64,000 bases of DNA from Arboricoccus pini (lineage in GTDB: Bacteria > Pseudomonadota > Alphaproteobacteria > Geminicoccales > Geminicoccaceae), in NCBI RefSeq assembly GCF_900187945.1, contig NZ_FYEH01000006.1, forward strand, positions 124,001-188,000, given 5' to 3'. Under the pieces are notes generated by a model. It searched no databases. It saw nothing but the letters and a program-made list of their open reading frames with translations, and was not told the DNA's origin. The translations under genes were made by a program, and so were the position numbers. This document shows, in pieces, positions 1,601 to 28,349 of this stretch. Each line of letters begins with the position of its first letter. The first letter of the stretch is position 1.

Positions 1601-1729
1601 GGGAGAAAGAGCTTGGTTGATTCGGTCGCGAGCTCGCATTTAGCGATACGAATACCGAATGTCACCGCGGCTTACGAAAATTTGAAGAGTCCCTGGTTTC
1701 TTCGCTGGCCGCCATGCGCATCGAGGTAT

Positions 1730-4829: not shown

Positions 4830-4878
4830 CGTCGGGGCGTTGCCAGCATCCCCCTCCTCCGCTATCAACGCGTCATCT

Positions 4879-4952: not shown

Positions 4953-4962
4953 ATGACCTAAT

Positions 4963-6785: not shown

Positions 6786-7300
6786 ATGGCATTTTGCCCC
6801 AGTCTGGCGCTCTATGGGCCTGAACGGCAGCACGCGGGATGCTGTCATCATCAGAACGTTCTGCAATTATCGGCAGTGTCGGCCAAGGATGGCATATTGT
6901 TGGGTTCGCCGATGCCCGCGGCGACGATAAAACGGGTATTCTATCGCAACGCGATTCCGGCGTTATTGCGCTTTGGCAGTTGAGCAATAATCAGGTCTTG
7001 CACGCCACCTCGATCGTCAGCGTGAATCAGATTTGACGCATTCTCGATTTTGACGATGTCAGCGGCGACGGGCAAGCCGGCATCAACTGGCAGAACAAAA
7101 CCGTGCCATCGCGGCGTGGTCAATCACGAACGGGTAGTTACCGGCGGCGTGACATTCGTTTCGACCGGACTTGGGTAGAATTTCCAAGGGTCCCTTGATG
7201 GCGATGGTCGGAGCTACTGGATCTGGCAACATCAATGCGGCGACGGCGATGCTTGGCAGATGACGAACGACCTTCATCTCAGCAGGCTGCCACCATAGCG
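6786..7300 (+). pseudogene. Remnant of an FG-GAP/VCBS-like repeat surface protein
   Basis: At least three consecutive degenerate copies of the repeat usually reading like GWHVVGTGDFNGDGKSDILW + QN..G..A.W.MNG are visible: GQGWHIVGFADARGDDKTGI then ALWQLSNNQ (6869-6993); RILDFDDVSGDGQAGINWQN (7037-7096) followed after a frameshift by AIAAWSITNG; and GSLDGDGRSYWIWQHQ then DAWQMTND (about 7189-7270). A TGA at 7034-7036 interrupts the frame between the first two copies, a frameshift near 7100 splits the second, and TAG codons follow. Such repeats occur in large secreted or RTX-like proteins of Bradyrhizobium and relatives. This is a dead fragment; no signal peptide or secretion gene remains. Confidence 0.7.
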
Positions 7301-7342
7301 CCGCGCGTTTACAGACTGGCATCTTTCCTAATGTTTGGTTGG

Positions 7343-8680: not shown

Positions 8681-8701
8681 CGATCCGTTGCTCGCTCGCC
8701 G

Positions 8702-9097
8702 TCAGGGTAACAGGATGGCAAGAATGGCCATGAGCACGCCGACAAGCGAGACGAGCCAAACGACGCTGCGCAGAACTGGGATCCCGGCTGCATAGAGCGG
8801 CAGATACACGATGCGTGCAACGAGGTAGAGGATGGCCGCTGACAATGTGAGCACGCCCTCTCGCCCGGTGACGTGCGCCACGATCAGGGCGGCGACGATC
8901 ACCGGCATGGTTTCGAAGAGGTTGGCTTGCGCTCGGCGCAGCCGCGCCGTCAGTCGCCCGACCGGCGGACCTTCGTCATCTCGCGGCCCGACATTGTAGG
9001 CCGTCCCCGTCTCCTTGTTGCGTGCATAAGACGCCAACAGGATCTGGACGATTGCCAGCAGCAATATCCAACCGACAAGATAGAGTTCGGTGCTCAA
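8702..9097 (-). CDS. MAPEG family membrane protein
   Basis: A 131-residue integral membrane protein with four hydrophobic segments (LYLVGWILLLAIVQILLAS; ETMPVIVAALIVAHVTG; LTLSAAILYLVARIVYLPLY; SVVWLVSLVGVLMAILAILL) and the MAPEG hallmarks RAQANLFETMPV and ARIVYLPLYAAGIP. MAPEG proteins of bacteria are often glutathione S-transferase-like, but many are uncharacterised. The start is a TTG at 9097 preceded by GGAG. It is 21 bp upstream of the PLP enzyme gene on the same strand, hence probably cotranscribed with it. Confidence 0.88.
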   Translation of the reverse strand: MSTELYLVGWILLLAIVQILLASYARNKETGTAYNVGPRDDEGPPVGRLTARLRRAQANLFETMPVIVAALIVAHVTGREGVLTLSAAILYLVARIVYLPLYAAGIPVLRSVVWLVSLVGVLMAILAILLP

Positions 9098-9222
9098 CCT
9101 ATTTTCTCCGGCTATGACCAGTGCTACCGACGGTGCGACGGTTGCCAGGGTAAGGCTGACCGGCAGACATGCCTATGAGGCTGGCCAATGTTTCTCGCCA
9201 GAGATCGTGGCGGCGGCTTGCG

Positions 9223-10377
9223 TCATTGCCTCGCGGTGGAAACTTCGTAGTCGCCGTTGATCCAGGTCCCGGTAACCTCGAGTTTGCTGTCGAGCAAGGC
9301 AAAGTTAGCTCGATAACCCGTGGCAATTCTGCCGAACTCATTCTGGAGTCCGAGGAACGCCGCGGGTACGGCCGATGCCATGCGCAAGGCTTGCTCGAGC
9401 GTTACATCTAGCCACGCACAAGCGTTGCGGACCGCCGTCGCCATGTCGAGGTCCGAACCCGCCAGGGATCCGTCAACCTCGAGAGCACAGCGGCCATCCT
9501 TCCGGACCACATTCCGGCCTTGCAACATGAAGCTCGACGATGCCGTACCTACGCCGGGCATGGCATCGGTAACCAACATAATATGCTCGGGACCTTTGGC
9601 GCGAATGGCCGCCTGCATGCTTGCGACATGAACATGGAAGCCATCAACGATCAAGCCACAGAATGACCCCCGATCCGCCAGCGCAAAACCGATGGGCCCG
9701 GGATCACGCCCGGCAAAAGGCGGCATGGCGTTGAAGAGATGCGTAAACCCTGTAAGGCCGAGTGATCTTGCGTTCGCGAGCGTTTCGCTGCTGGCGGCCG
9801 TATGACCCGCACTGACGATGACACCCGCATTGCAGAGATCGCGAATCTTCTCGAGATCCACGCATTCCGGGGCTACGGTCACCATCGAGACGCCGCCTTC
9901 GACCGATGCGAGGATGGCCACATCCTCCTCATCCAGTGGGCGCATTAAGGCAGGATTATGCACGCCTTTACGCAGCGGATTGAGGAACGGACCCTCGACA
10001 TGAATACCTAAAAGTCCCGGCAAGCCGGCATCTAGAGCGGCGGTGGCGGCCGCCACAGCTTCCCGCATTCGGCTCTGGGTATCGGTAATGAAGGTAACCA
10101 TAAAGCCTGTCGTACCATAGGCGCGATGGGCTTTTCCGATGGCGGCGATCCCCTGGACGGAGCGCTGGTCGTTGAACAGAACGCCTCCACCGCCATTCAC
10201 CTGTACATCGATGAAGCCTGGAACCAACAGGCCGGAAAGCCTCTCAGCACTCTCGGCCGCGCCCAGAGCAGAGACCGGGATTACCTGCCGCACGCGGCCC
10301 TCTTCGACGATGACAGCCATGCCGTCCTGCATGTTCAGACCGTCGAAAAGCCTATCAGGGACATAAATGCGCGGCAT
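9223..10377 (-). CDS. nagA: N-acetylglucosamine-6-phosphate deacetylase
   Basis: A 384-residue amidohydrolase of the NagA family, which removes acetate from N-acetylglucosamine 6-phosphate. Family motifs are LVPGFIDVQVNGGGGV, the metal-binding GIHVEGPFLNP (Glu near 128), VSAGHTAASSE, FTHLFNAMPP and the catalytic Asp in LVTDAMPG. The ATG at 10377 gives the standard MPRIYVPDRLFDG N-terminus; the frame is open to 10428. Neither nagB nor a PTS is adjacent, unlike classic nag operons; instead it leads a unit with MAPEG and class III PLP genes and is divergent from RidA. A related N-acetyl amino sugar or an amidohydrolase of altered specificity cannot be excluded. Confidence 0.88.
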   Translation of the reverse strand: MPRIYVPDRLFDGLNMQDGMAVIVEEGRVRQVIPVSALGAAESAERLSGLLVPGFIDVQVNGGGGVLFNDQRSVQGIAAIGKAHRAYGTTGFMVTFITDTQSRMREAVAAATAALDAGLPGLLGIHVEGPFLNPLRKGVHNPALMRPLDEEDVAILASVEGGVSMVTVAPECVDLEKIRDLCNAGVIVSAGHTAASSETLANARSLGLTGFTHLFNAMPPFAGRDPGPIGFALADRGSFCGLIVDGFHVHVASMQAAIRAKGPEHIMLVTDAMPGVGTASSSFMLQGRNVVRKDGRCALEVDGSLAGSDLDMATAVRNACAWLDVTLEQALRMASAVPAAFLGLQNEFGRIATGYRANFALLDSKLEVTGTWINGDYEVSTARQ

Positions 10378-10574
10378 GGCTCCGCTACCTCTCCGGCTAA
10401 GGCGTTCGTTCCAGCGTTCTAACGCCACTGTGCCCGCACAATCCAGCCGCGCTCGGCGTATCCATCACGGCCATGCCCCTTGCATCCCCGTCCGGCATTC
10501 CGCATGAGCAAACGCAGAGCGTTGGCATGGCGAACATGCCAGCGTCCCGCCTCGCACATTAAGGGAAAGTCACG

Positions 10575-10925
10575 ATGGTCAAGCGTATCCAGCCCGGCAA
10601 GCGCATGAGCCAAGCAGTCATTCACGGTGACACGGTCTATCTTGCCGGACAGGTCGCTGAAGATCCCAGCGCATCGATCCAGAACCAGACCCGTTCCGTC
10701 CTAGCGAAGATCGATGCAATTCTGGCCGAGGCCGGATCCTCGAAATCCGATCTCATTTCTGTCACGGTCTATCTTTCCAGCATCGCCGACTTTGCAGCGA
10801 TGAATGAGGTCTATGACGCGTGGATCGATCCGGCCAATCCCGCGACGCGCGCTTGCCTCGAGTCTCGCCTTGCCTCACCCGACCTGCGCGTCGAAATTGT
10901 AGCGGTGGCGGCCAAGCGTAGCTGA
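10575..10925 (+). CDS. RidA/YjgF/YER057c family deaminase
   Basis: A 116-residue RidA-family protein, which hydrolyses reactive enamine/imine intermediates made by PLP enzymes. The fold markers are QAVIHGDTVYLAGQVAED, TRSVLAKIDAILAEAGS, LISVTVYLSSIADFAAMNEV, the active-site Arg in ATRACLESRL and the conserved Glu in VEIVAVAA. It is trimeric and cytosolic in characterised members. The ATG follows AAGGGAAAG. It is transcribed away from nagA across a shared 200-bp region, which suggests common control with the PLP enzyme unit (inference). Confidence 0.92.
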   Translation: MVKRIQPGKRMSQAVIHGDTVYLAGQVAEDPSASIQNQTRSVLAKIDAILAEAGSSKSDLISVTVYLSSIADFAAMNEVYDAWIDPANPATRACLESRLASPDLRVEIVAVAAKRS

Positions 10926-11015
10926 AGCCTGTAGCAGCCCGGGTGGCGGCGAGGTGTGTTTTGCCAAGCTCGGGCCTGCTACGTAACACCGACTCTTCGA
11001 AGCGGCTGCGGGGCC

Positions 11016-11531
11016 TCAAGCACGCAAAGCTGCATCCAATATCGTGGCAACGGCCTGCTCCGCATCAAGCGCAAGCTCGGCTTGGCCTGCATAGAAGGAA
11101 ATCACCGTCTCGAGCGTGCACGCAAGATCGTCGGCTTTGGGAAGACGCCTTGTCGGTGCTGGAAGCAACTGCGCCAGCATTGCCTGCTCCACCTGTTCGG
11201 CGGCCAGTTCTGCCGTAGCGACCTTTTGCCGGACAGCGAGCTGAACTGGATGATCCTGAAGCTTATCGACAAGCTTCAGACTACGCCGCACTTTCCGCAG
11301 TGGCCAGACGACTTGACTGCGCCACTCCGATGCTGTCCTGTCCATTGCTGCTATGGTGAGGATGCTGGGCGGCCCGGCAATGGCCGCATGTATTAGCGCC
11401 ACAAGTAAGACGTTGACGTCGATCTTATGGCGATCCTGCAAGAGCAGACAGGCGTCCGCAACACCCGGTTGTTCGTAGACCCGGAGAGAAAAGCGCCAAT
11501 GAGCACCGTCGAGGTCAAGCTCGAAGCTCAT
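11016..11531 (-). CDS. TIGR02444 / DUF2390 family protein
   Basis: A 171-residue cytosolic protein with the layout of the TIGR02444 (DUF2390) family: HWRFSLRVYEQPGVADACLL, then QDRHKIDVNVLLVALIHA, then VVWPLRKVRRSLK and a C-terminal ATAELAAEQVEQAML. The function is unknown. The ATG at 11531 follows AGGTGAGAG; the frame is open to 11588 without support. It stands alone between ridA and the second CsbD gene. Confidence 0.8.
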   Translation of the reverse strand: MSFELDLDGAHWRFSLRVYEQPGVADACLLLQDRHKIDVNVLLVALIHAAIAGPPSILTIAAMDRTASEWRSQVVWPLRKVRRSLKLVDKLQDHPVQLAVRQKVATAELAAEQVEQAMLAQLLPAPTRRLPKADDLACTLETVISFYAGQAELALDAEQAVATILDAALRA

Positions 11532-11716
11532 TCGTCTCTCACCTGCAGCCACCGGCGACAGGCTACAAGAAGACGTCCACCGAACCACTTAGCATGCGGC
11601 CGAGTGATGTCTGCCGATTGGCAACCTTGTCGTCTGATCCAGATCGCGATGCCCACATCTTCGCCCCTTAACCCGACTGCATTATCGTCCGCAATTCGTT
11701 AAAGAAACACTAGCTC

Positions 11717-11742
11717 GGCAACGTTTTGCCCCCAAACTGTTT
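11717..11742 (+). promoter_or_regulatory. Candidate EcfG-like promoter for the second CsbD gene
   Basis: GGCAAC (11717-11722) is followed after 16 bases by GTTT (11739-11742), 54 bp before the start at 11796. The same GGCAAC...GTTT pair with a 17-base spacer precedes the first CsbD gene (940-966). Both deviate from the EcfG consensus GGAAC at one base in the same way. Just downstream, ACCGCGGT (11753-11760) is a short palindrome of unknown meaning. Confidence 0.4.
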
Positions 11743-11795
11743 ATAGCTGATGACCGCGGTCAACCGCGGACTTCCATTAACCAGACGAGGCCATC

Positions 11796-12158
11796 ATGAA
11801 CGAGGATCGAGCCGAAGCCACTCTGCGTGACGTAGGCGGTACAGGGAAGAAGATCGCGGGCGACCTGATCGGCGATGCGAAACTTCAGGCAGAAGGAACG
11901 GCCGACAAGGTCGTCGCACGCATTCAGGAAGGCGTCGGTCGGACCAAGGAACAGTTCGAGAGCGTTGCGGACACGGCCCAGCAACTTGGCGGCCGAGCCT
12001 ATGAGGCCGGCAGCAAAGCCAGTCAGTATGTTGCGGAAAGTATCAAGGAAACGCCGCTCATCACCTTGGCGGTCGGCATTGCAATCGGCTACGCGATTGG
12101 CGCGCTTGTCCATCGTCAGATCGCGCCCACACCCCCCTCTTACAAATTCTGGCGCTAG
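11796..12158 (+). CDS. CsbD-like protein with C-terminal membrane anchor
   Basis: A 120-residue protein. Residues 5-55 resemble CsbD (TLRDVGGTGKKIAGDLIGDA, LQAEGTADKVVARIQEGVG). They are followed by an Ala/Gln-rich helix and one membrane segment near the C-terminus (LITLAVGIAIGYAIGALVH) ending in a short basic tail, as in ElaB/YqjD (DUF883) ribosome-associated membrane proteins. The combination suggests a stress-induced, membrane-tethered protein. The ATG follows ACGAGG at six bases. An EcfG-like promoter lies upstream. It is convergent with arfB. Confidence 0.85.
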   Translation: MNEDRAEATLRDVGGTGKKIAGDLIGDAKLQAEGTADKVVARIQEGVGRTKEQFESVADTAQQLGGRAYEAGSKASQYVAESIKETPLITLAVGIAIGYAIGALVHRQIAPTPPSYKFWR

Positions 12159-12163
12159 GCATC

Positions 12164-12589
12164 TCAGTCATAATTGGTAGTGCTTCTCAATGCCTTTGTT
12201 CGCGAGCGTGAAGTCTTGCCCGCGATGCGCCGTTCCTTTGAAGCACGCGTGGGCCGGGTCGCCCGCCGCACTATCGGCGGCTCCAGCGCTTGCAAGACGA
12301 GGTCCTTGAGGCGTGAAATCGCGTCGTCGCGGTTCTGTTTCTGCGTACGGTGACGCTGCGCGAAAATTAAAATCACCCCGCTTTGGGTGAGACGATCTCC
12401 TGCCAGCTTCGCCAAGCGCTCTTTTGCACCTGCATTGAGCGCTTGGCTCCGCCCGACATGGAATCGCAGTTGGACAGCGCTAGCCACCTTATTGACGTTC
12501 TGGCCGCCAGGGCCCGACGCGCGCACGAAGACGATATCCACATCATCCTCGTCGAGCTGAAGGTCAGCGCTTACCGATATGCCCGCCAC
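12164..12589 (-). CDS. arfB: Alternative ribosome-rescue factor ArfB (peptidyl-tRNA hydrolase)
   Basis: A 141-residue release-factor homologue that frees ribosomes stalled at the end of non-stop mRNAs. The catalytic GGQ is at residues 28-30 in RASGPGGQNVNKV; the rest of the domain 3 fold follows (QLRFHVGRSQALN, LAGDRLTQSGVILIFAQRHR). The C-terminal basic tail (RRATRPTRASKERRIAGKTS) is what enters the mRNA channel. The length is that of E. coli ArfB (140). It lies 125 bp downstream of the NAGGN operon on the same strand; a separate promoter is likely. Confidence 0.94.
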   Translation of the reverse strand: MAGISVSADLQLDEDDVDIVFVRASGPGGQNVNKVASAVQLRFHVGRSQALNAGAKERLAKLAGDRLTQSGVILIFAQRHRTQKQNRDDAISRLKDLVLQALEPPIVRRATRPTRASKERRIAGKTSRSRTKALRSTTNYD

Positions 12590-12714
12590 GTCAGGATCTC
12601 TTGGTTTCAGTGATCAGCGCGGATGAAGGCGCCATGATATCGACGGGAGACAGTCAGCAACCTTGTCTTCGTCCTCGCTCCCGCGAGCATAATGCCATAC
12701 TGGCAGGAGGCAAT

Positions 12715-13899
12715 TTATTCGGACAACCGAGGCTCTGGATCCTCAGTCTCTTCGAGAATGGCGTCCGCTGAACGGCTGAGGGTAGCCTCGTCCATCGGTT
12801 GGTGCGTGAAGCCCTTGAGGGGTGCCAGCTCCAGAGCATCGCGGGCGATTTCCACCGGGCTCGTCACGTAAGCTGTGATCAGCTCCGCCAAGCTGCGAAG
12901 ACTATGCATGTGGATCCGCTCGTAGCCGTGGCTGCCATCGACACCAAAGGTGATGAGCGCCGTGCGCACATCGGCCCCCGCCTCGATGGCGGAGGCGCTA
13001 TCGGAGCGATAGTAGCGAAAGACATCCCGCTGGAAGCGGATATCGTGATCCTGACACAAGCGGACCAGTTTGCGGGTCAGATGCCAGTCGAAAGGTCCCG
13101 TCTGGTCGGCCATGGCGATCGTGACACCGAATTCGTCACTCGCCTGACCGGGCGCTGTCGTGCCGTTGTCCACCGCGATCATGGAAGCGATTTCCGGCGC
13201 CAGCAGCGAAGAGGCACCGACGCCGACCTCTTCGGCAATGGAGAACAGCCAATATGTGTCCACCGCTGGCGACAAGCCCTCGCGCAAGATCGCCTCGAGC
13301 GCTGCCAGCATGACAGCTACTCCGGCCTTGTCGTCGAGGTGCCGAGAGACGATGAAGCCATTCTCCAGGAATTCAGGTTGAGGCTCAATAGCAACGATGT
13401 CGCCGATGGCGATGCCTAGTCGCTCTAGGTCCCGACGGCTCTTGGCCATCGCATCGACTCGCAATTCGACATATTCCCAGCCGACCGGCTGGGTATCAAT
13501 CTCGCCGTCGTAAGTGTGCCCGGAAGCCTTGAGCGGCAAGATCGTGCCGCGGTACGTGCCATGCTCACTGTAGATGACCGTCCGCGCCCCTTCGGCAAAG
13601 CGCGATGACCAATGGCCAATCGGTACCAGCTCAAGGCGCCCGTTTGGCTTAAGGAGCTTGACCTGCGCACCCAACGTGTCGAGATGAGCGCAGATTGAGC
13701 GAGCAGGGCGCCGCTTGGCGCCCTCCAGGCGAGCTCGAATTGCTCCCCTTCGCGTCAATTCGATGACAAGGCCCAGCGAGCGCAACTCGTGGCTGACCCG
13801 GTGGACGATCTCGTCGGTGTATCCTGTAGGGCTAGGAATCGCCAACAGGGCAGCAAGCATCCGTTGAAGATAGCTCGTATCAATCTTCAGCCGGCGCAT
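12715..13899 (-). CDS. NAGGN-system M42 family peptidase
   Basis: A 394-residue metallopeptidase of family M42 (TIGR03106-type, associated with the osmoprotectant NAGGN system). Metal and catalytic sites visible: CAHLDTLG (His and Asp), SRHLDDKAGVA (bridging Asp), SIAEEVGVGAS (catalytic Glu and ligand Glu), MIAVDNG (Asp) and IHMHSLRSL (His). It starts nine bases after the synthetase gene stop and is the last gene of the asnO-synthetase-peptidase operon. Its role in the system, perhaps turnover of the dipeptide amide, has not been shown as far as I know. Confidence 0.92.
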   Translation of the reverse strand: MRRLKIDTSYLQRMLAALLAIPSPTGYTDEIVHRVSHELRSLGLVIELTRRGAIRARLEGAKRRPARSICAHLDTLGAQVKLLKPNGRLELVPIGHWSSRFAEGARTVIYSEHGTYRGTILPLKASGHTYDGEIDTQPVGWEYVELRVDAMAKSRRDLERLGIAIGDIVAIEPQPEFLENGFIVSRHLDDKAGVAVMLAALEAILREGLSPAVDTYWLFSIAEEVGVGASSLLAPEIASMIAVDNGTTAPGQASDEFGVTIAMADQTGPFDWHLTRKLVRLCQDHDIRFQRDVFRYYRSDSASAIEAGADVRTALITFGVDGSHGYERIHMHSLRSLAELITAYVTSPVEIARDALELAPLKGFTHQPMDEATLSRSADAILEETEDPEPRLSE

Positions 13900-13908
13900 G
13901 AATTGTCC

Positions 13909-15747
13909 CTATTGGCTGCCAGGCAGGGAAGCACCCACCCCAGCCTGATTATTTTTCTGGTGACGCTCTGCCGCCGCGGCTCGAGCAGCGGCGGGCAATG
14001 AGAGTGGGAAAAGCAAGTCGACGAAACGCTCCGCGGTGGGCTGCGGTTCGTGATTAGCCAATCCCGGCCGCTCATTGGCTTCGATAAATACATAGTCCGG
14101 CTGCATTGGTGACTTGACCATGAAGTCGATTCCGACGACGGGAATGTGAATGGCGCGCGCGGCACGGATTGCCGCATCCACCAGTACGGGGTGGATGCGG
14201 TCCGTTACGTCATGGATCGTGCCGCCAGTATGAAGATTCGCCGTCCGGCGGACTTGCAACTCGCTGTCGCGCTCAAGGACGTCATCAAGGGTAAATTCCT
14301 GGGCAAGGATACACCGTTCCGTCTCATCATCCAGCGGAATGCGTGATTCGCCGCCAGTCGCCAGAGAGCGCCGCTTGCTCTGCCGCTCGATCAAATCGCG
14401 GATATTGCTGGTGCCGTCGCCAACGATGCTGGCGGGTTTCCGGATGGCTGCCGCAACCAGCCGATAGTCAATCACGATCAGACGAAGATCGAGGCCATCA
14501 TGGAAGGCCTCGACGAGCACATGCTGGCAATAGGCGCGCGCGGCATCCACGGCGCGCTCGACGGCCTCGATATTGTCCAGACCGACGGCAACGCCTTTTC
14601 CCTGCTCGCCACGGGCGGGCTTAACGACGACCAAGCCGTGCTGCTCGATGAAGGAGGGCAAGGCCTCGCACTCTGCGGCATCTATCTGTTCAGGTACGCG
14701 AACCCCGGCAGCACTCACGATGCGCCGCGTCACCGCCTTATCGTCACATATGCTCATTGCGACGGCGGTGGTGAACTCGCTCAGCGATTCGCGACATGCT
14801 ATCGATCGACCGCCATAGGTCAGGCGAAAAAATCCGCCCTCCGAGTCGATGACATCGACCCCGATGCCACGGCGGCGCGCCTCGTCGACGATGATCCTTG
14901 CGTAGGGATTGAGGTTGCTCTCCACGTCCGGGCCGGCGAAGAGCCGTTCATTGATCGGATTCTTGCATTTGACGGTAAAGAAAGGAAGGCGCTCGAAGCC
15001 GAGCTTTTCATATAGACGAATTGCTACGTCGTTATCGTGCATCACGGACAGATCCGTGAATTGTGCGCCGCGTGTTTGGAAAAGCTCCACCAAGTGTCGA
15101 ACGAGCGTTTCACCTATCCCAGGGCGGGCTGACTGCGGATCGACGGCCAGGCACCAAAGCGAAGAGCCCCGGTTAGGATCCTCGAACGCGCGAGCATGGT
15201 CGATGCCCGTAACCGTACCGACGATCGCACCAGTTCGGAGGTCTTCGGCCACCAGATGGATAATTGCGCGATTGTCCCGTCGGTGCCAGAAAAAGTCAGG
15301 GGGCACAGCTACCATGTGCTGCGCCGCATAAATGCGGTTGACCTCTATCGCGTCCTCCGCAGAGGTCATGCGTCGAACCGTAAAACCGAGCGGTCGCCGC
15401 CGCGACGGCCGATAAGTCGACAAATCCAAACGATAGGTGTGCGAGGGATCAAGGAATAATTCTTGAGGGGCCGCGGCGAGCAGCACATGAGGGTCGCGGA
15501 CGTAAAAGGCGATGTCCCGTCGATCATGCCCTTCGGCGCGCATAGCGGCTGCCAGTTCGGCCGGAACCTTGAACGTCTGGCCGAAGAGCAATCTTCCCCA
15601 GCCGCAGTCAATTGAAGCATTGGGCAGGGGCTCAGCCATGTGGCCCTCCTCGGCTTGCTCGATCACCGCAGAATTATCGCGCCGCAATCGCCTCAGGCGA
15701 TCGGCAAATCCACCAAACGTGCGAGAGCCGCCGATCGCAGCGCTCAT
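13909..15747 (-). CDS. ngg: N-acetylglutaminylglutamine synthetase (GNAT + ATP-grasp)
   Basis: A 612-residue two-domain enzyme. The first part holds a GNAT acetyltransferase (about 95-275: CLAVDPQSARPGIGETLVRH then HDNDVAIRLYEKLGFERLPF). The second is an ATP-grasp ligase (about 290-590: VVKPARGEQGKGVAVGLDN, RIPLDDETERCILAQEFTLD, VGIDFMVKSPMQPDYVFIEA with the metal-binding Glu/Asn). This fusion is the TIGR03103 type, proposed to join and acetylate two glutamines to make the precursor of the dipeptide osmolyte NAGGN. It is the middle gene of the operon, 24 bp after asnO. The symbol follows usage for the Pseudomonas aeruginosa system and may differ elsewhere. Confidence 0.92.
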   Translation of the reverse strand: MSAAIGGSRTFGGFADRLRRLRRDNSAVIEQAEEGHMAEPLPNASIDCGWGRLLFGQTFKVPAELAAAMRAEGHDRRDIAFYVRDPHVLLAAAPQELFLDPSHTYRLDLSTYRPSRRRPLGFTVRRMTSAEDAIEVNRIYAAQHMVAVPPDFFWHRRDNRAIIHLVAEDLRTGAIVGTVTGIDHARAFEDPNRGSSLWCLAVDPQSARPGIGETLVRHLVELFQTRGAQFTDLSVMHDNDVAIRLYEKLGFERLPFFTVKCKNPINERLFAGPDVESNLNPYARIIVDEARRRGIGVDVIDSEGGFFRLTYGGRSIACRESLSEFTTAVAMSICDDKAVTRRIVSAAGVRVPEQIDAAECEALPSFIEQHGLVVVKPARGEQGKGVAVGLDNIEAVERAVDAARAYCQHVLVEAFHDGLDLRLIVIDYRLVAAAIRKPASIVGDGTSNIRDLIERQSKRRSLATGGESRIPLDDETERCILAQEFTLDDVLERDSELQVRRTANLHTGGTIHDVTDRIHPVLVDAAIRAARAIHIPVVGIDFMVKSPMQPDYVFIEANERPGLANHEPQPTAERFVDLLFPLSLPAAARAAAAERHQKNNQAGVGASLPGSQ

Positions 15748-18607: not shown

Positions 18608-19645
18608 CTAGCTGTCCAGGACAATCTGCAGCTTGACGTCGGTTGGACGGGCTTCGACCGCACGGTCGAACACGGCGATGCTTTCCTCGAAGGGAAAGCT
18701 GCCGGATATCAACGGCTTAAGATCGATCTTGCCCGCGATAAGCTTGATCGCCCGGTCATAGACATTCGCATAGCGAAAGACTGTCTCGATGCGGACCTCC
18801 TTGGCGATCAGCGAGGCGAAATCCACCGGTACAGGTTCGGTCGGATTGCCCACCAGTACGATGGCGCCTCCCGGCCTTACCGCTTCCATCATGACCGGAT
18901 AGGCGTGCTTGCTGCCGCTGGCATCGAAGACCAGATCGGCGCCCCAGCCCTCCGTGCTGCCTTTGACGACGTCGATCAGCGTTCCGCTTTTGACGTTGAC
19001 CGGGGTGATTCCGTCGTACTGCCCGGCAATCTTGAGCTTTTCGTCGACCAAGTCGGCAATGATGATCTGGCTACAGCCGCCAGCTAGTGCCGCCAGAGCG
19101 ATCATGATGCCGATGGGGCCGGCCCCCATCACGACACCGACGTCACCGGGCGTGATGCGCGCCTTCACCGCCGCCTGCATGCCAACTGCAAAGGGTTCGA
19201 TCATGGCACCTTCGGCGAAGCTGACATTATCGGGCAGCTTGTAGGTGAAGGCAGCGGGGAAGACGACGTAGGGCGTCAGGCACCCGTGGTCGGGCGGCGT
19301 GGCCCAGAACGTCAACGATGGGTCGAGATTATAGAGACCCATCTTGGAGAGACGGCTGTTCAAGTTCGGCACGCCGGGTTCGATACAGACGCGATCCCCG
19401 ACCTTAAGCGTCGCAACGTTCTTGCCAACTTCGACAACCGTCCCTGACCCCTCATGCCCGAGGACCATGGGTGCGTTCACCACGAACGGACCAATGCGTC
19501 CATGCGTGTAATAGTGAACGTCGCTCCCGCAGACGCCCACCGTGTGCATCTTGATCTTGACGTCGTCCGGCCCCGGCTCCTGAGGAAGATCGATGTCGCG
19601 CAGCGACAATTCATGTGGGCGTTCAAGGACCAGTGCACGTGCCAT
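18608..19645 (-). CDS. Zinc-type polyol dehydrogenase (xylitol/iditol dehydrogenase-like)
   Basis: A 345-residue medium-chain dehydrogenase that should oxidise a sugar alcohol to a ketose with NAD+. Catalytic zinc ligands are seen in [11 protein letters not shown] and [10 protein letters not shown] with the later Glu in [11 protein letters not shown]; the Rossmann motif is [19 protein letters not shown]. The lobe that usually holds four structural-zinc cysteines reads [20 protein letters not shown] with no cysteine, so that site is lost, as in some rhizobial xylitol dehydrogenases. The ATG at 19645 gives the normal [14 protein letters not shown]-terminus. It is divergent from a sugar ABC operon, implying that the imported solute is its substrate. 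It could act on xylitol, D-arabitol or sorbitol. Confidence 0.85.
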
Positions 19646-19810: not shown

Positions 19811-21160
19811 ATGAAGTTCTTGAAAGCATCGTGTTGCGCCCTGGCCATGGCGACGGCGCTTGCTCTGAGTTCGCCGGTCAAGGCAGAGGACTGGTCCTTG
19901 GCCAAGGCTGCAGAGCCTTTCAAGGGCGAGACCATCAATGTCATCTTCCTCGATCGTCCCGGCTATCGAGCCATCATCAAGCTGTTGCCGCAGTTTGAGA
20001 AAGAGACTGGCATCAAGGTCAATTACGAAATCGTCCCTTACGAGAACACCCGCGAGAAGGAGGTCTTGAACTTCAGTTCGCAGGGCGATCTGACCGTGGC
20101 ACTGGTCGACCTGGTGTGGGTCGGTGAATTCGCCGAGAATGGTTGGATCGTGCCCGTTGACCATTTCACGAGCGATCCGTCTATCACCGATCCGAAACTC
20201 GACCTGAAAGGCTTCTTCCCGCTGCTTCTCGATGCATTCGGGACCTGGGGCGGCACAGTCTACGGCTTGCCCTTCGACAATTATTCCGGCCTGCTCTTCT
20301 ATAACAAGTGCATGCTGAAGGATGCGGGTTTCGACAAGCCGCCTGCCACCTGGGACGAGTTGCTCAAAACCTATGCGCCGAAGCTCACGAACAAGGAAAA
20401 GGGGACGTATGCCTATGTCCTCCAATCCCGCCGCGGCGAGACTCAGTCGGCAGACAGCTTCATGCGCTTCCTCTGGCCGTTTGGCGGCTCGCTCCTGAAC
20501 AAGGAATTCAAGTCGAACCTTTCGTCCAAGGAAAGCCTGGATGGCCTGAACTTCCGCCAAGCGCTGGCGCCTTATATGCCTCCTGGATATGTGAGCTTCG
20601 ACCATGCCGAAGCGGTGAACGCCCTGGCCCAGGGCCAGGCAGCCATGCTGACCGAATGGTCGGCTTTCTATTCGACCCTCACCGATCCAAAGACATCGAA
20701 GATCGGCGACTGTCTTGCCGTTGCGCCAGAGCCCGCTGGTGCCGCCGGTCGCCTGCCAGCCCTTGGCGGGTTTTCGCTGGCTGTGGCCTCACAGGCGCCA
20801 GAAGAGCAGCAGAAAGCCGCTTGGCTCTTCATCCAGTGGGCGACCTCCGACGCCATTGCCAAGGACTATGTTGAGGCGGGTGGCGTATCCGGCCGGACGA
20901 AAGTCTACGAGGACCCCGAGATCAAGGCAAAATACCAGTTCGTCGAGCCTTTGGTGCAGTCCTGGCAGAAGGGCGTTGCGGTGTTCCGGCCGCGCTTCCC
21001 GGCCTGGCCCGCCATTTCCGAGATCATTGGCGAATGGGGCTCAAAGATGCAGTTGGGCGAAGTAAGCGTCGAGCAGGGCGCCAAGGAAATAGGCTCGCGG
21101 ATGGAGGATGTCCTCCAGAAGGAAGGCTATTACGACGGCAAGAAGAAGCTCCTTCAGTAG
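19811..21160 (+). CDS. Sugar/polyol ABC transporter, substrate-binding protein
   Basis: A 449-residue family 1 extracellular binding protein. The signal peptide ([20 protein letters not shown], cut near VKAED) precedes the binding domain: [20 protein letters not shown] then [20 protein letters not shown], and later [33 protein letters not shown] and [20 protein letters not shown]. This pattern fits periplasmic proteins for polyols and disaccharides in rhizobia. The ATG at 19811 is chosen because the longer frame to 19682 would spoil the signal peptide. It is the first gene of an operon with a SIS isomerase and two permeases, and is divergent from a polyol dehydrogenase. Confidence 0.92.
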
Positions 21161-21172
21161 GAGCCACCTCGC

Positions 21173-21724
21173 ATGAAATCCCTTTGGACACAGACCCTTG
21201 CCGAGCTCGACCACGTCTTCGCCGAACTCAAGCAGGACAGGGTTCAGCTCGTGGTCAACGAGATCGCAAATGCGCGAACGATTGTCCTCTATGGCGTCGG
21301 CCGCGAGGGACTGCAGATCAAGGGATTCGCCATGCGGCTCTACCATCTAGGCCTGAAGGTCGGGGTGGTCGGCGAGATGATCGCACCGGCCATCGGCCCG
21401 GGCGACCTGCTGATCGTCTCGGCCGGCCCAGGGCAGTTTGCGACGGTCGGCGCACTCATGACTATCGCCGGGGCAGCCGGTGCGCGGGTCCTGGTGATAA
21501 CGGCAGATCCCCAGGGCAACGCCGCCGCTCAGGCAGACTTGGCGCTGGTCCTGCCAGCGCAGACCATGGCCAGCGACCGTGACGGGGCAACGTCCGTGCT
21601 ACCGATGGGGTCGCTCTATGAGGGCGCCTTGTTTCTTCTTCTCGAAATCATCGTCCCGAAGCTGCGCCATCGTCTGGGTGTCAATCCCGCGACGATGCGC
21701 GCGAACCATACGAATCTGGAATGA
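21173..21724 (+). CDS. SIS-domain protein, 6-phospho-3-hexuloisomerase-like
   Basis: A 183-residue single SIS domain protein. VVNEIANARTIVLYGVGREG, MRLYHLGLKVGVVGEM, DLLIVSAGPGQFATVGALMT and ARVLVITADPQGNAAAQADL match HxlB-type 6-phospho-3-hexuloisomerases, which interconvert 3-hexulose 6-phosphate and fructose 6-phosphate. The C-terminal SVLPMGSLYEGALFLLLEII is also typical. It follows AGGAGCC, 12 bp after the binding-protein gene, and its stop overlaps the next permease start (ATGA). Placement of an isomerase inside an importer operon suggests that it processes the imported sugar after phosphorylation; no kinase is in the window. The hexulose phosphate synthase partner is also absent. Confidence 0.82.
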   Translation: MKSLWTQTLAELDHVFAELKQDRVQLVVNEIANARTIVLYGVGREGLQIKGFAMRLYHLGLKVGVVGEMIAPAIGPGDLLIVSAGPGQFATVGALMTIAGAAGARVLVITADPQGNAAAQADLALVLPAQTMASDRDGATSVLPMGSLYEGALFLLLEIIVPKLRHRLGVNPATMRANHTNLE

Positions 21725-22674
21725 GTACGAGCATCGAGCACGCGAACAAAACGGTCGCGGCCAGCGCCGCCCGTAATCCCTCAGGCAAGGGCCCTCGCCT
21801 TGGACATGGCCGCTTTGTCCATGTCTGGTTCCTGGCGCCCGCGGTCCTGGCGCTCCTCGCGATCGGCACCTATCCCACGATATTCGCGGTCGTTACCTCC
21901 TTTCATCAATATAACCTGACGCGGGTGCGGGACGGATTTCCCTTTGTTGGCTATGCTAATTACGTTTCCGTGCTCGGCGATAGCAGCTTCTGGAACACGC
22001 TGCTGACGACGCTCGAATTCTTCCTGGTCGTCATGCCGATCGAGATCGTTCTGGGCTTCGTCATCGCGAGCCTCCTGCATCGCGAGGGCTTGGGCTTCCT
22101 TCGCAGTGTCGCTCGCGTCACCCTCGTCGTGCCACTGGCCACGACCTACGCCGTCGTGGGTCTGGTCGGCCGCCTCCTGTTCAACCAGGATTTCGGCGTG
22201 CTCACCCAGGCCTTTCGCGCCATTGGGCTGGACATCGACTGGCTGGGCTCGGTTGGGGGCGCATTCGCGGCGATTGCCATCATGGATGTCTGGCAATGGA
22301 CGCCCTTCTGCGCCCTGATCTTCCTGGCGGGCCTCACTATGGTCCCCGGCGAGATCGAGGAGGCGGCAAGACTGGATCGCGCCAGCGGCCTCAAGCTTTT
22401 CTGGCACATTCAATTGCCCTTCCTGCTTCCTGGCTTGACCTCACTCCTGATCCTCCGCTCGGCCGACATTCTCAAGCTATTCGACATGATCTTCACGATG
22501 ACCCGCGGCGGCCCGGGCTCGGCCACGGAACTCATCTCGATCTACATCCAGCGCATTGGTTTTCGGGTCTTCGATCTCGGCACGGCTTCGGCCCAGGCCA
22601 TTCTGCTGCTCATCCTCACAATCGTGCTCTCGAGGCTCTATATCCGCTTTCTCTATCGGGAGGCCTCGGCATGA
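21721..22674 (+). CDS. Sugar ABC transporter permease (MalF-like)
   Basis: A 317-residue inner-membrane permease with six membrane segments. The N-terminal segment [20 protein letters not shown] is typical of the MalF group. The EAA loop that docks the ATPase is seen at [39 protein letters not shown] follows, as usual for sugar permeases. It is coupled by four-base overlaps to the genes on both sides. Confidence 0.94.
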
Positions 22675-23492
22675 AGACTAACCCCCTGCTTCGCCTTGGC
22701 CATCTGGTTGGGCTCATCCTGATCATCGTCTTCATGCTGTTTCCCTTTTATTGGATGCTCGCCTCAAGCCTGAAGAGCCAAGCCGATCTTCTGGCCTCGC
22801 CGCCGGTGTTCATCTTCAAACCTACATTAGAACACTACGCTGAAATCTTCGCCGATGAGAAAGTGACGCTAGCGATCCTCAACTCTTTCATCGTGGCGAT
22901 CTCGACGACTGCCTTAGCGCTATTGCTTGGAGCGCCTGCCGCCTACGCGCTGGCGCGGTTCGATTTTCGCGGCAAGAAGGATATTTGGTTCTGGTTTATC
23001 AGCAACCGAATGATCAGTCCTATCGTTCTCGCGCTTCCGGTCTATCTCCTCGCCCGCAACCTAAACATGCTCGACAGCCACATCGTGCTGATTTTGATCT
23101 ACCTCACCTTCAATCTGCCGATCGTGGTCTGGCTATGCACTGATCAGTTCGCCGGCATTCCCGGGGAACTCGAACAGGCGGCGCGTGTGGACGGTGCTGG
23201 AACATTCACCATCTTTGCCCGGATCTACCTACCTTTGGCTTTGCCTGGTCTGGCGGTCTCCGCAATCTTCAGCTTCATCTTTTCGTGGAACGAGTTGCTT
23301 TATGCTCTGATACTTACCAGACGCGCGGCACAGACAGCGCCCGTCATTGCGACCAGCTTCATGTCCGGATACGAGCTCCCGTGGGGCAAGATCATGGCGA
23401 CAGGCTCTGTCATCGTTTTGCCGGTGACCATTTTTGCGCTGCTTGTCTCTCGTCACATGATCCGTGGCTTGACCATGGGCGCCACGAAATAA
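22671..23492 (+). CDS. Sugar ABC transporter permease (MalG-like)
   Basis: A 273-residue inner-membrane permease of the MalG group with six membrane segments: [20 protein letters not shown] starts the first, and the EAA loop is [20 protein letters not shown]. The ATG at 22671 overlaps the upstream stop (ATGA); the same frame is open from 22296 but only as a shadow of the upstream gene. No ATPase gene follows; the next gene is a SorC regulator 45 bp on. The energising ATPase must be encoded elsewhere, perhaps shared, such as the UgpC/MsmX-type subunit at 49549 (inference). Confidence 0.93.
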
Positions 23493-23537
23493 CGGCGAAC
23501 GACATTGGATGCATCCGAGCGACCTTTTCACGACGGC

Positions 23538-24488
23538 ATGGCGCCGATGCAGCAAGATGCCATGGGAATCGAAGCTGAACGCATTAAGGCGCGCGTGCTC
23601 TGGTACTCCTTCATGGGCGCCATGACGCAGCAGGAGATTGCCGAACGTCTGGGTATCACCCGCCTGCGCGTCAATCGCATCATCGGTCAGGCGCGTCAGG
23701 ATGGCTCCGTTGCAATCGATATCCGCGTCCCGCTCGCCAGTTGCATCGAACTCGAGCAACGCCTGATCAAGCGTTACGAGCTCAAGGAAGCAACCGTCGT
23801 ACCGTCGATGGCAGACTATCAGCAAACGAGGCGCGTGGTCGGCGAGACAGCTGGCTTCGCGCTCGATCGCCTGCTTGAAGATGGACGATCGATCGGTGTG
23901 GGCTGGGGAACGACGCTGAGCATCGCCATCCGCGGCTTGCGACCCAGGCGACTGCAGAAGAGCTGGGTCGTCGCTCTCATGGGTGGACTGACCCGCGGTT
24001 CCGGCACGAACACTTTCGAAGTGTCAACCGAATTATCACGCGCCCTATCCGCTTCATGCTATTATCTGGCCGCCCCTATTTATTGCCCAGATGAGCAAAG
24101 TAGAGATTCTTTACTTTCTCATTATGGACTTTCTGAAGTAATACGTCTCGCATCTGAAGTCGACGTTGCCCTGGTATCCTGCGGTGATCTCTCAAAACGG
24201 TCCAATCTCGTGATGACGCCGATCGTCGAGAGCCACCTACCGGAACTCCACGAGGCAGGTGCTGTGGGCGACATCCTTGGGACGTTCATCGATGCCGATG
24301 GCCGACCGGTCAATCATCCACTAAATCGCCGTGTCCTGGCGCTGACCCCTGCCGGCCTTGGCGGCATCAAAGATGCCATTCTCACCGCGGCGGGGACGCA
24401 TAAGCACGCGATCACGCGGGCGATCCTGCAAGGTCGGTTCATCAACCGACTCATCGTCGACGAAGAAACCGCCCTTTTGCTGCTCTAA
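23538..24488 (+). CDS. SorC family sugar-responsive transcriptional regulator
   Basis: About 316 residues. The N-terminal helix-turn-helix is MTQQEIAERLGITRLRVNRI, followed by the sugar-phosphate-binding SorC domain (SIGVGWGTTLSIAIRGL, VVALMGGLTRGSGTNTFE, LVSCGDLSKRSNLV, AVGDILGTFIDADGRPVNHP). These proteins bind a phosphorylated sugar and act as repressor or activator of adjacent catabolic genes. It sits 45 bp after the second permease. The start is unclear: the frame begins at a TTG (23505), and ATGs at 23538, 23547 and 23562 are all possible, with no clear ribosome site. A patch around 24055-24150 has noticeably lower GC. Confidence 0.87.
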   Translation: MAPMQQDAMGIEAERIKARVLWYSFMGAMTQQEIAERLGITRLRVNRIIGQARQDGSVAIDIRVPLASCIELEQRLIKRYELKEATVVPSMADYQQTRRVVGETAGFALDRLLEDGRSIGVGWGTTLSIAIRGLRPRRLQKSWVVALMGGLTRGSGTNTFEVSTELSRALSASCYYLAAPIYCPDEQSRDSLLSHYGLSEVIRLASEVDVALVSCGDLSKRSNLVMTPIVESHLPELHEAGAVGDILGTFIDADGRPVNHPLNRRVLALTPAGLGGIKDAILTAAGTHKHAITRAILQGRFINRLIVDEETALLLL

Positions 24489-24494: not shown

Positions 24495-25337
24495 TCAGGA
24501 GCGCACGCGTCGGGGCGATGATCGACTCGCCACCGCGGAGATGCCTCCCATGTCGAGGGTAAGCGCTCTAGCGGCATCCCTGATCGAACGCCCTAATATC
24601 TGTAATCGCTCCACTGGAATGCGTGCGGTGGGACCGGAGATCGATAAGGCACCGACCGGGCTTGCATGCTCATCCAGTATCGCGGCGGCGACGCATCGCA
24701 TGCCCAACGCATGCTCCTCATCATCGATCGACCACCCCCGACCGCGTATAACGCGAAGATCCGCCAGGAGTGCGTCGATCGAGGTGAGCGTGTGCGGCGT
24801 TGCTGCAGGCAAGCCGTGATGTCGGACCATGGCTTGAACCTCCTCATCGGGCATGCAAGCAAGCAGTGCTTTGCCGACGCCCGAACAGTGCAACATCACC
24901 GAGCCGCCGGGACGACCGATCGCACGGACCATCTGACGCGATTCAACTTGAACAAGACAAATGGCGCGGCCCGAGTCGGGTACATAGAGATTAACAGTCT
25001 CGCCGCTTTCTTCCATAGCTGAACGCATACGCAGCCGCGCGATCATCGTCAGGTCGCGCGTGCGAGCGAAACCATTACCCGTGGTGAAGGCGGCAACACC
25101 CACCTGCCACAGCCCGCTCATGGCATCGAAGCGAGCAAAGCGCGTCTGTTGCAGGGTCGTGAGCAGACGATGGGTTGTCGATGGCGGAAGATCCAGCATT
25201 CGAGACAATTCACTCAAAGTCGCCTTCTCGGGAGAGGCAGCTATTGCCTCAAGCAACGACAGACCACGAACTAGCGATTGAACTTGACCGGACCGTTCCT
25301 TAGGAGAACGCTTACCGTCCGCATCTTTGGGAGTCAT
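24495..25337 (-). CDS. IclR family transcriptional regulator
   Basis: A 280-residue IclR protein. The winged helix-turn-helix is at about residues 20-80 (VRGLSLLEAIAASPEKATLS, ELSRMLDLPPSTTHRLLTTL) and the effector domain is C-terminal (VNLYVPDSGRAICLVQVESR, GVGKALLACMPDEEVQAMV, GRGWSIDDEEHALGMRCVAA with the conserved Asp/Glu-Glu and Cys, and GALSISGPTARIP). The target is unknown. It converges on the SorC gene with only six bases between stops and is divergent from the hsp20-lon pair. The ATG at 25337 is chosen; the frame is open to 25415. Confidence 0.9.
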   Translation of the reverse strand: MTPKDADGKRSPKERSGQVQSLVRGLSLLEAIAASPEKATLSELSRMLDLPPSTTHRLLTTLQQTRFARFDAMSGLWQVGVAAFTTGNGFARTRDLTMIARLRMRSAMEESGETVNLYVPDSGRAICLVQVESRQMVRAIGRPGGSVMLHCSGVGKALLACMPDEEVQAMVRHHGLPAATPHTLTSIDALLADLRVIRGRGWSIDDEEHALGMRCVAAAILDEHASPVGALSISGPTARIPVERLQILGRSIRDAARALTLDMGGISAVASRSSPRRVRS

Positions 25338-25552
25338 CGTCTTTAGGCCCTCATGCACATGGACGGCTCGCCGGTCCGATGTCGAACAACATATTGTGTG
25401 CCGCTTGACCTCCATATGTCAGCATTCCGAGCCGATTGATCACACATACCCCCAATCGCATTGCAGCGTCGGTCCAGGATCGCCACTTCTCTACCGAAGG
25501 GCAACGGCTCGCGGCGACATTCGACAACAGCCAGGCCAAGTAGGACATCGAC

Positions 25553-25960
25553 ATGCGTGGTATCGACAGGAACTGGATGTGGGCCGAAGCGCTGGGCCGG
25601 ATCGAACGTGCCGAGAGACTTCACCGGCAATATTTTCGTCCGAATGCGCAAAGACAAGGAAGCCGCACGCCGTCCTGGGAACCGCCGCTGGACATGGTGG
25701 AAACCGAGACTGAGGTTCTCATCCTCATAGCGCTGCCGGGTGTCGACCTGACCCGGGTGGAAACGACGATCGAAGGCGACACGCTGGTAGTCTTGGGCGA
25801 ACGCCGGCTGCCTGTTCAACTCGCGTCGGCGCTCGTCCATCGGTTGGAGTTGCCGCGCGGACATTTTGAACGTCGGCTTCGCCTACCCGCCGGCCGCTAT
25901 GGATCGGTCAGCCGCGAAGAAGCTCTGGGTTGTCTCCTCGTCATCCTCAGCAAGGCCTGA
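25553..25960 (+). CDS. Small heat-shock protein, Hsp20/alpha-crystallin family
   Basis: A 135-residue holdase chaperone. The alpha-crystallin domain begins near residue 44 (PPLDMVETETEVLILIALPG), continues with VDLTRVETTIEGDTLVVLGE and ends with the GHFERRLRLPAGRYG strand. The C-terminal I/V-x-I/V motif is weak or missing. AGGA stands eight bases before the ATG. The stop is 28 bp before lon, so the two probably form a heat-shock operon in which unfolded proteins are held or degraded. Confidence 0.9.
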   Translation: MRGIDRNWMWAEALGRIERAERLHRQYFRPNAQRQGSRTPSWEPPLDMVETETEVLILIALPGVDLTRVETTIEGDTLVVLGERRLPVQLASALVHRLELPRGHFERRLRLPAGRYGSVSREEALGCLLVILSKA

Positions 25961-25988
25961 AGGAAGGACGCCAGTGGAGTACGAAAAC

Positions 25989-28349
25989 ATGGCTGACAAC
26001 AGCCCCGCAGGTTCGGCACCGGCGCAAGATGCGAACCTCGCTCTCTTACCGCTTAAAAATCTGGTCGTCTTTCCCGGCTCGATGCTTCCGGTCGTAATCG
26101 AGGGCAAGCGCGCAATCGCTGCAGCACAGCAGGCCGTTCGCCAGGGCACCCAGGTGGGGCTCGTTCTCTGCCGGGAAGGCGCTCCGGAAGATCCGGGGCT
26201 GGCCGACATCCATCAGATCGGCACGGTCGCGAACATCCTGCGCTACGTGACAGCACCCGATGGCGCCACGCATCTGGTCGTCCAGGGAATAGAGCGCTTT
26301 TCCGTGCAGGCACCGGTCGCCGAAGAACCCGTGCTCACGGTACAAGCGCGACGCATGCCCGATCCTGAGGAGCGAACGGCTGAGATCGAGGCGCGGTTCG
26401 TCAACCTCCGAAACCTCGCCACCGAAGCCTTGCAACTTCTCCCGCAGCCGCCGCAGGAACTCCTGGCAGCGATCAGCGCGTCCACGTCGCCCGGCGGCCT
26501 AGCCGATCTTGCGGCGACCTACATGGACGCCAGCGCCCGCGAGAAGCAGGACGTACTGGAAACGATCCCACTTGCCCCGCGCATCGAGCGTGTGACCGCC
26601 TTGTTGGGCCACAGGATCGAGGTCATGCGTCTGTCGGCGGAAATCGGCAAACAAACAAGGGCCTCCCTTGACGATCGCCAACGGGAAGTTCTGTTGCGCG
26701 AACAGATGGCCGCCATTCAAAAGCAATTGGGTGAGGACGACGGGAAAGCGGCAGAGATCGCTGAACTCACCAAGGCGATCGAAGCCGCGCAGATGCCCGA
26801 CGATGTCGCGACGACGGCAAAGAAGGAGGTGCGCCGGCTCGAACGCACGCCTGAGCAATCCGCTGAATATGGAATGATCCGCAGCTACCTGGACTGGCTC
26901 ATCGAGCTGCCCTGGGCCATGCCGGAGGAAAAGAGCATCGACCTGGATCATGCTCGGTCCATCCTGGATTCTGACCATTTCGGCCTGGACAAGATCAAGC
27001 AGCGAATCATGGAATATCTGGCCGTCCGCAAGCTGTCGCCGACGGGTAAGGCTCCGATCCTTTGCTTTGTGGGCCCCCCGGGAGTGGGCAAGACTTCCCT
27101 CGGTCAGTCCATCGCGCGCGCCATGGGCCGACCATTTGTCCGCGTGAGTCTGGGCGGCGTTCATGACGAGAGTGAAATTCGTGGACATCGGCGAACCTAT
27201 ATCGGCGCGCTGCCGGGAAACATCATCCAGGGCATCCGCAAGGCTGGCGCACGCGATGCCGTTGTGATGCTTGACGAGATCGACAAGATGGGTCGCGGCA
27301 TCCAGGGTGACCCTTCGGCAGCCATGCTTGAGGTTCTGGACCCGGAACAAAACGCTACGTTTCGCGATGCCTATCTTGGCGTCCCCTACGATCTCAGTCG
27401 GACAGTCTTCATCGCTACCGCGAACATGTTGGACAACATCCCCGGGCCGCTGCGTGACAGGATGGAGATCATTAGCCTCGCTGGTTACACCGAGGCGGAG
27501 AAGTTTGAGATCGCCAAACGTTATCTCTTGGATCGACAAAAGGCCGCGAACGGCTTGAGCGACGTCCAGGTGACGATCGACGACGCAGCACTGCGACAAC
27601 TCATTCGCAGCTATACGCGGGAGGCCGGGGTTCGCGGCCTGGAACGCGAAATCGGTAGGCTCATGCGCCATGTCGCGGTCGGGGTTGCCAGCGGGAAGAC
27701 GACGGCTCGGACGATACACGCCGAGGATCTGGAATCCATATTGGGCCCGTCACGCTTCGAGAGCGAGGTCGCGATGCGCACCTCGATCCCGGGCGTCGCT
27801 ACCGGCTTAGCGTGGACCCCGGTGGGCGGCGACATCCTCTTTATCGAGGCGGCACGCGTGCCGGGAAGGGGCAACCTGATCGTCACAGGACAATTGGGCG
27901 AGGTCATGCGTGAAAGCGTCCAGGCGGCTCTAAGCTTGGTCAAAGCCCGCACCGCCGCCTTGGGCATCGACAGCTCTGCCTTCGAGCGCAGCGACATTCA
28001 TGTCCATGTGCCCGCCGGAGCCACCCCCAAGGACGGGCCGAGTGCTGGCGTTGCCATGGTCGTCGCCCTGAGTTCGCTCTTGACCGGTCGCACGGTTCGC
28101 AGCGATACGGCGATGACGGGCGAAATATCATTGCGTGGCCTTGTGTTGCCTGTCGGCGGTATCAAGGAAAAGGTCGTCGCGGCCGCGGCGGCGGACATCA
28201 AGCGGGTTCTTCTTCCTGCCCGCAACCGGCACGACTTCGTCGACATCCCTGACGACGTGCGCCAGGCACTCGAATTCGTCTGGCTCGATACTGTCGATCA
28301 GGCGTTGGAAGCAGCTCTGGAGTCCGCGGCCGAGGCGCGGGCCGCCTGA
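25989..28349 (+). CDS. lon: ATP-dependent protease Lon (endopeptidase La)
   Basis: A 786-residue AAA+ serine protease. The N-terminal substrate domain begins LALLPLKNLVVFPGSMLPVV. The AAA+ module has Walker A CFVGPPGVGKTS and Walker B VVMLDEIDKM. The protease domain carries the catalytic Ser in PKDGPSAGVAM and the Lys in GGIKEKVVAAA. The length is normal (E. coli Lon 784). The frame is open upstream; ATG 25989 lies after GGAG, but a GTG at 25974 with GGAAGG before it would add five residues and could be the real start. Preceded by hsp20, which suggests co-regulation under heat stress. An 8-bp hairpin follows the gene. Confidence 0.96.
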   Translation: MADNSPAGSAPAQDANLALLPLKNLVVFPGSMLPVVIEGKRAIAAAQQAVRQGTQVGLVLCREGAPEDPGLADIHQIGTVANILRYVTAPDGATHLVVQGIERFSVQAPVAEEPVLTVQARRMPDPEERTAEIEARFVNLRNLATEALQLLPQPPQELLAAISASTSPGGLADLAATYMDASAREKQDVLETIPLAPRIERVTALLGHRIEVMRLSAEIGKQTRASLDDRQREVLLREQMAAIQKQLGEDDGKAAEIAELTKAIEAAQMPDDVATTAKKEVRRLERTPEQSAEYGMIRSYLDWLIELPWAMPEEKSIDLDHARSILDSDHFGLDKIKQRIMEYLAVRKLSPTGKAPILCFVGPPGVGKTSLGQSIARAMGRPFVRVSLGGVHDESEIRGHRRTYIGALPGNIIQGIRKAGARDAVVMLDEIDKMGRGIQGDPSAAMLEVLDPEQNATFRDAYLGVPYDLSRTVFIATANMLDNIPGPLRDRMEIISLAGYTEAEKFEIAKRYLLDRQKAANGLSDVQVTIDDAALRQLIRSYTREAGVRGLEREIGRLMRHVAVGVASGKTTARTIHAEDLESILGPSRFESEVAMRTSIPGVATGLAWTPVGGDILFIEAARVPGRGNLIVTGQLGEVMRESVQAALSLVKARTAALGIDSSAFERSDIHVHVPAGATPKDGPSAGVAMVVALSSLLTGRTVRSDTAMTGEISLRGLVLPVGGIKEKVVAAAAADIKRVLLPARNRHDFVDIPDDVRQALEFVWLDTVDQALEAALESAAEARAA

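Follow-up and report, generated by a model that had tools for sequence, protein, structure and literature searches.

The operon at 19811-24488 of the window (the whole 64,000-nucleotide stretch of DNA that was analysed, positions 124001-188000 of the 295-kb contig C8) encodes a sugar importer together with a SIS-fold protein and contains no ATPase gene, raising the questions of how the importer is energised and what the SIS protein contributes to catabolism of the imported polyol. The coordinates agree with the gene order, the tight spacing and the divergent polyol dehydrogenase originally described for this locus, which consists of the following genes:

18608-19645, minus strand: divergent zinc-dependent polyol dehydrogenase, sorbitol/xylitol dehydrogenase-like, 345 aa (Pfam ADH_N and ADH_zinc_N)
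19811-21160, plus strand: polyol-binding periplasmic component of a CUT1 importer, 449 aa (SBP_bac_1)
21173-21724, plus strand: SIS-fold protein, 6-phospho-3-hexuloisomerase type, phosphate loops altered, 183 aa (TIGR03127, AF2 model)
21721-22674, plus strand: CUT1 permease 1, MalF/UgpA-like, 317 aa (BPD_transp_1)
22671-23492, plus strand: CUT1 permease 2, MalG-like, 273 aa (BPD_transp_1)
23505-24488, plus strand: SorC/DeoR-type sugar-sensing regulator, 327 aa (Sugar-bind PF04198, 192 bits, and helix-turn-helix)

An import operon without an ATPase gene

All five plus-strand genes are open, with starts that overlap or lie close, and 4-base overlaps link the SIS gene to that of permease 1 and the latter to that of permease 2. 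The binding protein and the two MalF/MalG-type permeases identify a CUT1 importer, and the helix-turn-helix and sugar-binding domains of a SorC/DeoR regulator are both present. No MalK-type ATPase gene was found within 9 kb of the permease genes, and in the whole window Walker A and ABC signature motifs occur together only in the open reading frames at 33878, 40746 and 49549, which bears out the original observation that the operon has no ATPase gene. Since the operon is internal to contig C8, the missing gene is not an artefact of a contig end. Beyond the operon, at 24495-28349, we read an IclR-type regulator gene convergent with the SorC gene, then an Hsp20-like gene and a gene for a Lon-type protease.

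A locus scan with one genome per species yielded 31 loci carrying relatives of the SIS gene. Their usual order, which varies, is dehydrogenase, binding protein, SIS protein, two permeases, a TIM-barrel epimerase (PF01261) and SorC, followed by an FGGY pentulose kinase, a MalK-type ATPase and a xylulokinase. Such fuller operons were found in Chelatococcus, Pseudoxanthobacter, Phyllobacterium, Mesorhizobium, one Geminicoccaceae MAG and others, so that the search for relatives with the same order and an added kinase or ATPase gene, suggested with the original prediction, returned both. In contrast, the window copy is without the ATPase, the kinases and the epimerase. A SorC gene lies beside or near the SIS gene in most of the related loci. 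The same binding protein is also encoded together with a divergent ugpC gene on plasmid records of Caballeronia, Skermanella, Ruegeria and Paracoccus, and its identity to the window protein is 59-79% across Alpha- and Betaproteobacteria and Deinococcus. In this last genus, which belongs to a different phylum, a plasmid of Deinococcus sp. QL22 (locus L106, 9938-13350) carries the orthologous binding protein and permeases, and no ATPase gene of the ugpC/MalK type is annotated nearby.

Candidate ATPases for the importer

The polyol CUT1 importer was confirmed to be without an ATPase of its own and, as had been proposed, must therefore borrow one encoded elsewhere. Two ATPases of the genome have to be considered:

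C23:13448-14527: stand-alone MalK/UgpC-type ATPase, 360 residues (UgpC family, 530 bits, cut-off 432)
49549-50667, plus strand: MalK-type ATPase (UgpC family, 445.5 bits, cut-off 432)

The ATPase on contig C23 has complete ABC motifs and an OB/TOBE domain, and there is no permease gene beside it. Orthologues with 68-80% identity are present in 18 of 30 other Geminicoccaceae genomes, most of them without a permease gene within 1.5 kb, whereas less similar paralogues usually have one. MalG-type permease genes are located about 3.3-3.5 kb from the orthologues of G022 and G026, and the ATPase gene may therefore have begun in an ordinary operon. Over the permease-contact region, the C23 ATPase is the closest of the 18 ATPases of its own genome to those of the complete orthologous operons.

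To put these genes in the context of the family, MalK-type ATPases and MalG-type permeases were listed in nine Geminicoccaceae genomes and paired by distance. Half of the MalG-type permeases of the window genome (7/14) had no MalK-type ATPase within 6 kb, and reading the sequences of the six such loci outside the window revealed no MalK-type ATPase in any of them. The same applied to 7 of 11 permeases in G022, a single-contig genome, as confirmed by reading approximately 7 kb on each side. Among the seven family genomes with a C23-type ATPase, 54 of 108 MalG-type permeases were without a nearby ATPase, compared to 2/11 in the two family genomes without an orthologue of the C23 ATPase and 2/23 in the outgroups Phyllobacterium phragmitis (0/17) and Chelatococcus composti (2/6) together. 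As permeases within one genome are not independent, the Fisher values are guides only, with p ~0.0002 for the comparison with the outgroups and 0.06, a weak contrast, for that with the two family genomes.

From these analyses, a shared ATPase similar to MsmX and MsmK appears to be the best explanation of the ATPase-less operons, in which case the C23 ATPase would energise the permeases of the window operon and also drive the other ATPase-less CUT1 importers of its genome. In Firmicutes and Streptomyces, it is well documented that one orphan ATPase can serve several CUT1 importers, and a Synechocystis protein can substitute (PMC7658222). Like MsmX of B. subtilis, MsmK of S. pneumoniae and S. 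suis and MsiK of Streptomyces, the C23 ATPase is a stand-alone MalK-type protein in a genome with several ATPase-less CUT1 importers, and in the permease-contact region it shares 72% identity with MsmX. Unlike these proteins, it is alphaproteobacterial, we infer its sharing, and three of the four proposed MsmX signature residues (D77, R104, E110 and K154) differ, D77 alone being kept. With one of four positions kept, the signature was dropped as support for multitasking; its proposers reported a working substitute ATPase that keeps only two of the residues (PMC7658222). A dedicated ATPase gene elsewhere in the genome had been named as a finding that would speak against the original prediction; this applies only in part, as the product of the gene found elsewhere looks shared rather than dedicated. 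So far, most demonstrations of shared sugar-importer ATPases come from Gram-positive bacteria, and a family-wide lone ATPase with many ATPase-less importers would, if true, extend this principle to Alphaproteobacteria.

The original prediction regarded the ATPase at 49549 as the only free-standing candidate in the window. However, this gene lies directly behind those of its own binding protein (46027-47442) and two permeases (47460-48482 and 48475-49530) and is thus not free-standing; it closes a separate, complete importer operon (46027-50667), and the real stand-alone ATPase gene is the one at C23:13448. The ATPase at 49549 could in principle energise the window permeases besides its own importer, as MalK-type ATPases of different importers can replace one another and as, in a whole-domain tree, the ATPases of the complete orthologous operons have 49549 and not the C23 ATPase as their sister (support 100/97). 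We nevertheless consider this unlikely, since in the contact region 49549 resembles the operon ATPases less closely than the C23 ATPase does (58% versus 64%), and since sharing of 49549 would give no reason for the six other ATPase-less operons and for the conserved lone ATPase.

Less likely still, the window operon could be decaying, having lost its epimerase, kinases and ATPase, with an importer that no longer works. Four further genes are present at the loci of the relatives and none of them in the window operon, which would be compatible with such a loss. On the other hand, the five remaining genes are open and closely spaced, the binding protein is 76-79% identical to those of intact operons, permease 1 is 69% identical to the permease of the complete Phyllobacterium operon and permease 2 is 79% identical to that of a complete operon. 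Moreover, a second family genome (G002) likewise has no ATPase alongside its retained binding protein and permeases, and ATPase-less operons are common in Geminicoccaceae, all of which argues against decay.

A different arrangement was seen at another locus of the window genome (L029, G000:C16:56000-70000, 699-12438). There, genes for a binding protein and two permeases are accompanied by those for SorC, an FGGY kinase and two ATPases that adjoin each other, and by a GlpD-like gene; the set may resemble the glycerol importer of Rhizobium, which has two ATPases.

The SIS protein and its altered phosphate loops

The description of the SIS protein as 6-phospho-3-hexuloisomerase-like holds for its fold and catalytic Glu and His, but not for its phosphate loops or its family score. 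An AF2 model of the protein (pLDDT 93.3) kept the hexuloisomerase SIS fold, the best structural matches being YckF, AF1796, an HPS-PHI fusion and MJ1247 (Z 22.5-24.2), with YckF closest (Z 24.2, rmsd 2.7, 177 residues aligned). No variation occurs at the catalytic Glu150 and the C-terminal His179 among the 28 aligned sequences of the subfamily. In contrast, the window protein has the loops GREG and AGPGQF where hexuloisomerases have GRSG and SGSG(E/R)T, the latter pair being found in all four solved relatives named above, and GRE(G/A) and xGPGxx stand in place of GRSG and SGSGET in 27 of the 28 aligned members. By comparison with GlmS, the residues replaced here correspond to the four whose side chains bind phosphate in the SIS fold. 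The TIGR03127 score of the window protein is 152.8 bits, under the curated cut-off of 160, and a second SIS copy in the same genome scores 159 bits. Hence, fold, catalytic Glu and C-terminal His are shared with YckF/HxlB and MJ1247, whereas the loops differ, as does the setting, a polyol-import operon with no synthase partner; no hexulose-phosphate synthase was seen in any of the operons read.

Since the usual phosphate hold is lost, the substrate of the SIS protein is expected to be a free ketose or one that is held differently. The protein would then be a hexuloisomerase-fold enzyme that isomerises ketoses, most likely allowing a second polyol or ketose to enter the same route. Genes for CUT2 importers, for SorC, for a Dak-type kinase and for an EryC-like epimerase are found near those of close SIS relatives. 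In Chelativorans (L077), such a relative is accompanied by a D-erythrulose-4-phosphate isomerase whose score exceeds its own cut-off. EryC-like epimerase, Dak-type kinase and erythrulose-4-phosphate isomerase are part of the erythritol/threitol pathway, of which the window operon has no genes. Judged from gene content, the shared theme of the SIS neighbourhoods appears to be ketoses from tetritols and pentitols and not hexulose phosphates.

Two of these neighbourhoods may be described further. The Chelativorans sp. locus (L077, 6712-16060) is an apparent tetritol/erythrulose cluster encoding a TPI-like protein, the erythrulose-4-phosphate isomerase, the SIS protein, SorC, a CUT2 importer, the EryC-like epimerase and the Dak kinase. 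The second SIS copy of the window genome, of the same subfamily, is located near a contig end (L021, G000:C25:45000-60552, 6672-15236) in a CUT2 operon with the order LacI, binding protein, RbsA-type ATPase, permease, SIS, FGGY kinase and class II aldolase.

Alternatively, the SIS protein could be a non-enzymatic sugar-binding partner of SorC, as SIS domains are the sensors of RpiR regulators and as the SIS and SorC genes adjoin also where the transporter genes are unrelated (L056, L058, L070, L071, L076 and L077). However, the protein has no DNA-binding domain and the invariance of the catalytic residues points to an enzyme, and we rate this role as slightly less probable than decay of the operon. 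Least probable of the alternatives is a route from polyol to ketose to 3-ketose phosphate with a true 6-phospho-3-hexuloisomerase, which the retained fold and catalytic residues and a score just below the cut-off would allow, but against which speak the changes at each of the four positions that correspond to phosphate ligands in SIS proteins and the lack of a synthase gene in the operons read. The 3-ketose-phosphate isomerisation of the original prediction is unsupported, as the phosphate positions are replaced and the score is under the family cut-off, and the relatives have pentulose kinases or erythrulose-phosphate enzymes.

Members of the SIS subfamily are annotated as "SIS-domain protein" or "6-phospho-3-hexuloisomerase". 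Judging from the changed loops, the second of these names probably leads predictions of polyol catabolic pathways astray. In the literature, we found no description of this SIS gene in polyol operons except for an hxlB-like gene in a Pantoea region with sugar importers.

The probable polyol and its proposed catabolic route

The best solved relatives of the divergent dehydrogenase are sorbitol dehydrogenase (274 bits) and xylitol dehydrogenase (214 bits). For the binding protein, the nearest solved structure is the sugar ABC binding protein 5iai (171 bits), a distant relative in which ribitol is bound (PMC8468352); the structure model of the window protein itself (pLDDT 46) was too poor for use of the ligand site. 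A pentitol substrate is indicated by the ribitol of 5iai, the xylulokinase and pentulose kinases of the relatives and the sorbitol/xylitol-type dehydrogenase taken together. Thus, the imported polyol is probably a pentitol, sorbitol also being possible, and a route by way of a pentitol or related ketose agrees better with the findings than one through 3-hexulose 6-phosphate.

Of the pathway originally proposed, the polyol CUT1 importer with its polyol dehydrogenase stands, and the subsequent 3-ketose-phosphate isomerisation does not. After import, the polyol would be oxidised to a ketose by the divergent dehydrogenase, and D-xylulose may then be phosphorylated by a lone xylulokinase (XylB, C9:139994-141454) and enter the pentose phosphate pathway. 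This XylB is 62% identical to that of the orthologous operons, and a distant pentulose kinase (38% identity) is encoded on C10; no match to the epimerase of the relatives' operons was obtained in the genome at E 1e-5. The SorC regulator would control the operon in response to a sugar ligand. We find it somewhat probable that all these elements apply together, that is, a polyol importer borrowing the C23 ATPase, a ketose passing to the pentose phosphate pathway, a SIS ketose isomerase that does not grip phosphate, and control by SorC. A bolder version, in which a SIS family without phosphate grip shifts the carbonyl of free pentuloses or erythrulose and as many as 18 CUT1 importers in a single genome are powered by one lone ATPase throughout the family, is doubtful. 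Among described systems, SmoEFGK of Sinorhizobium meliloti (PMC10433430) has its own ATPase, SmoK, and no SIS gene described, whereas the window operon has a SIS gene and no ATPase gene; a CUT1 polyol importer, a polyol dehydrogenase and a DeoR-type regulator are common to both.
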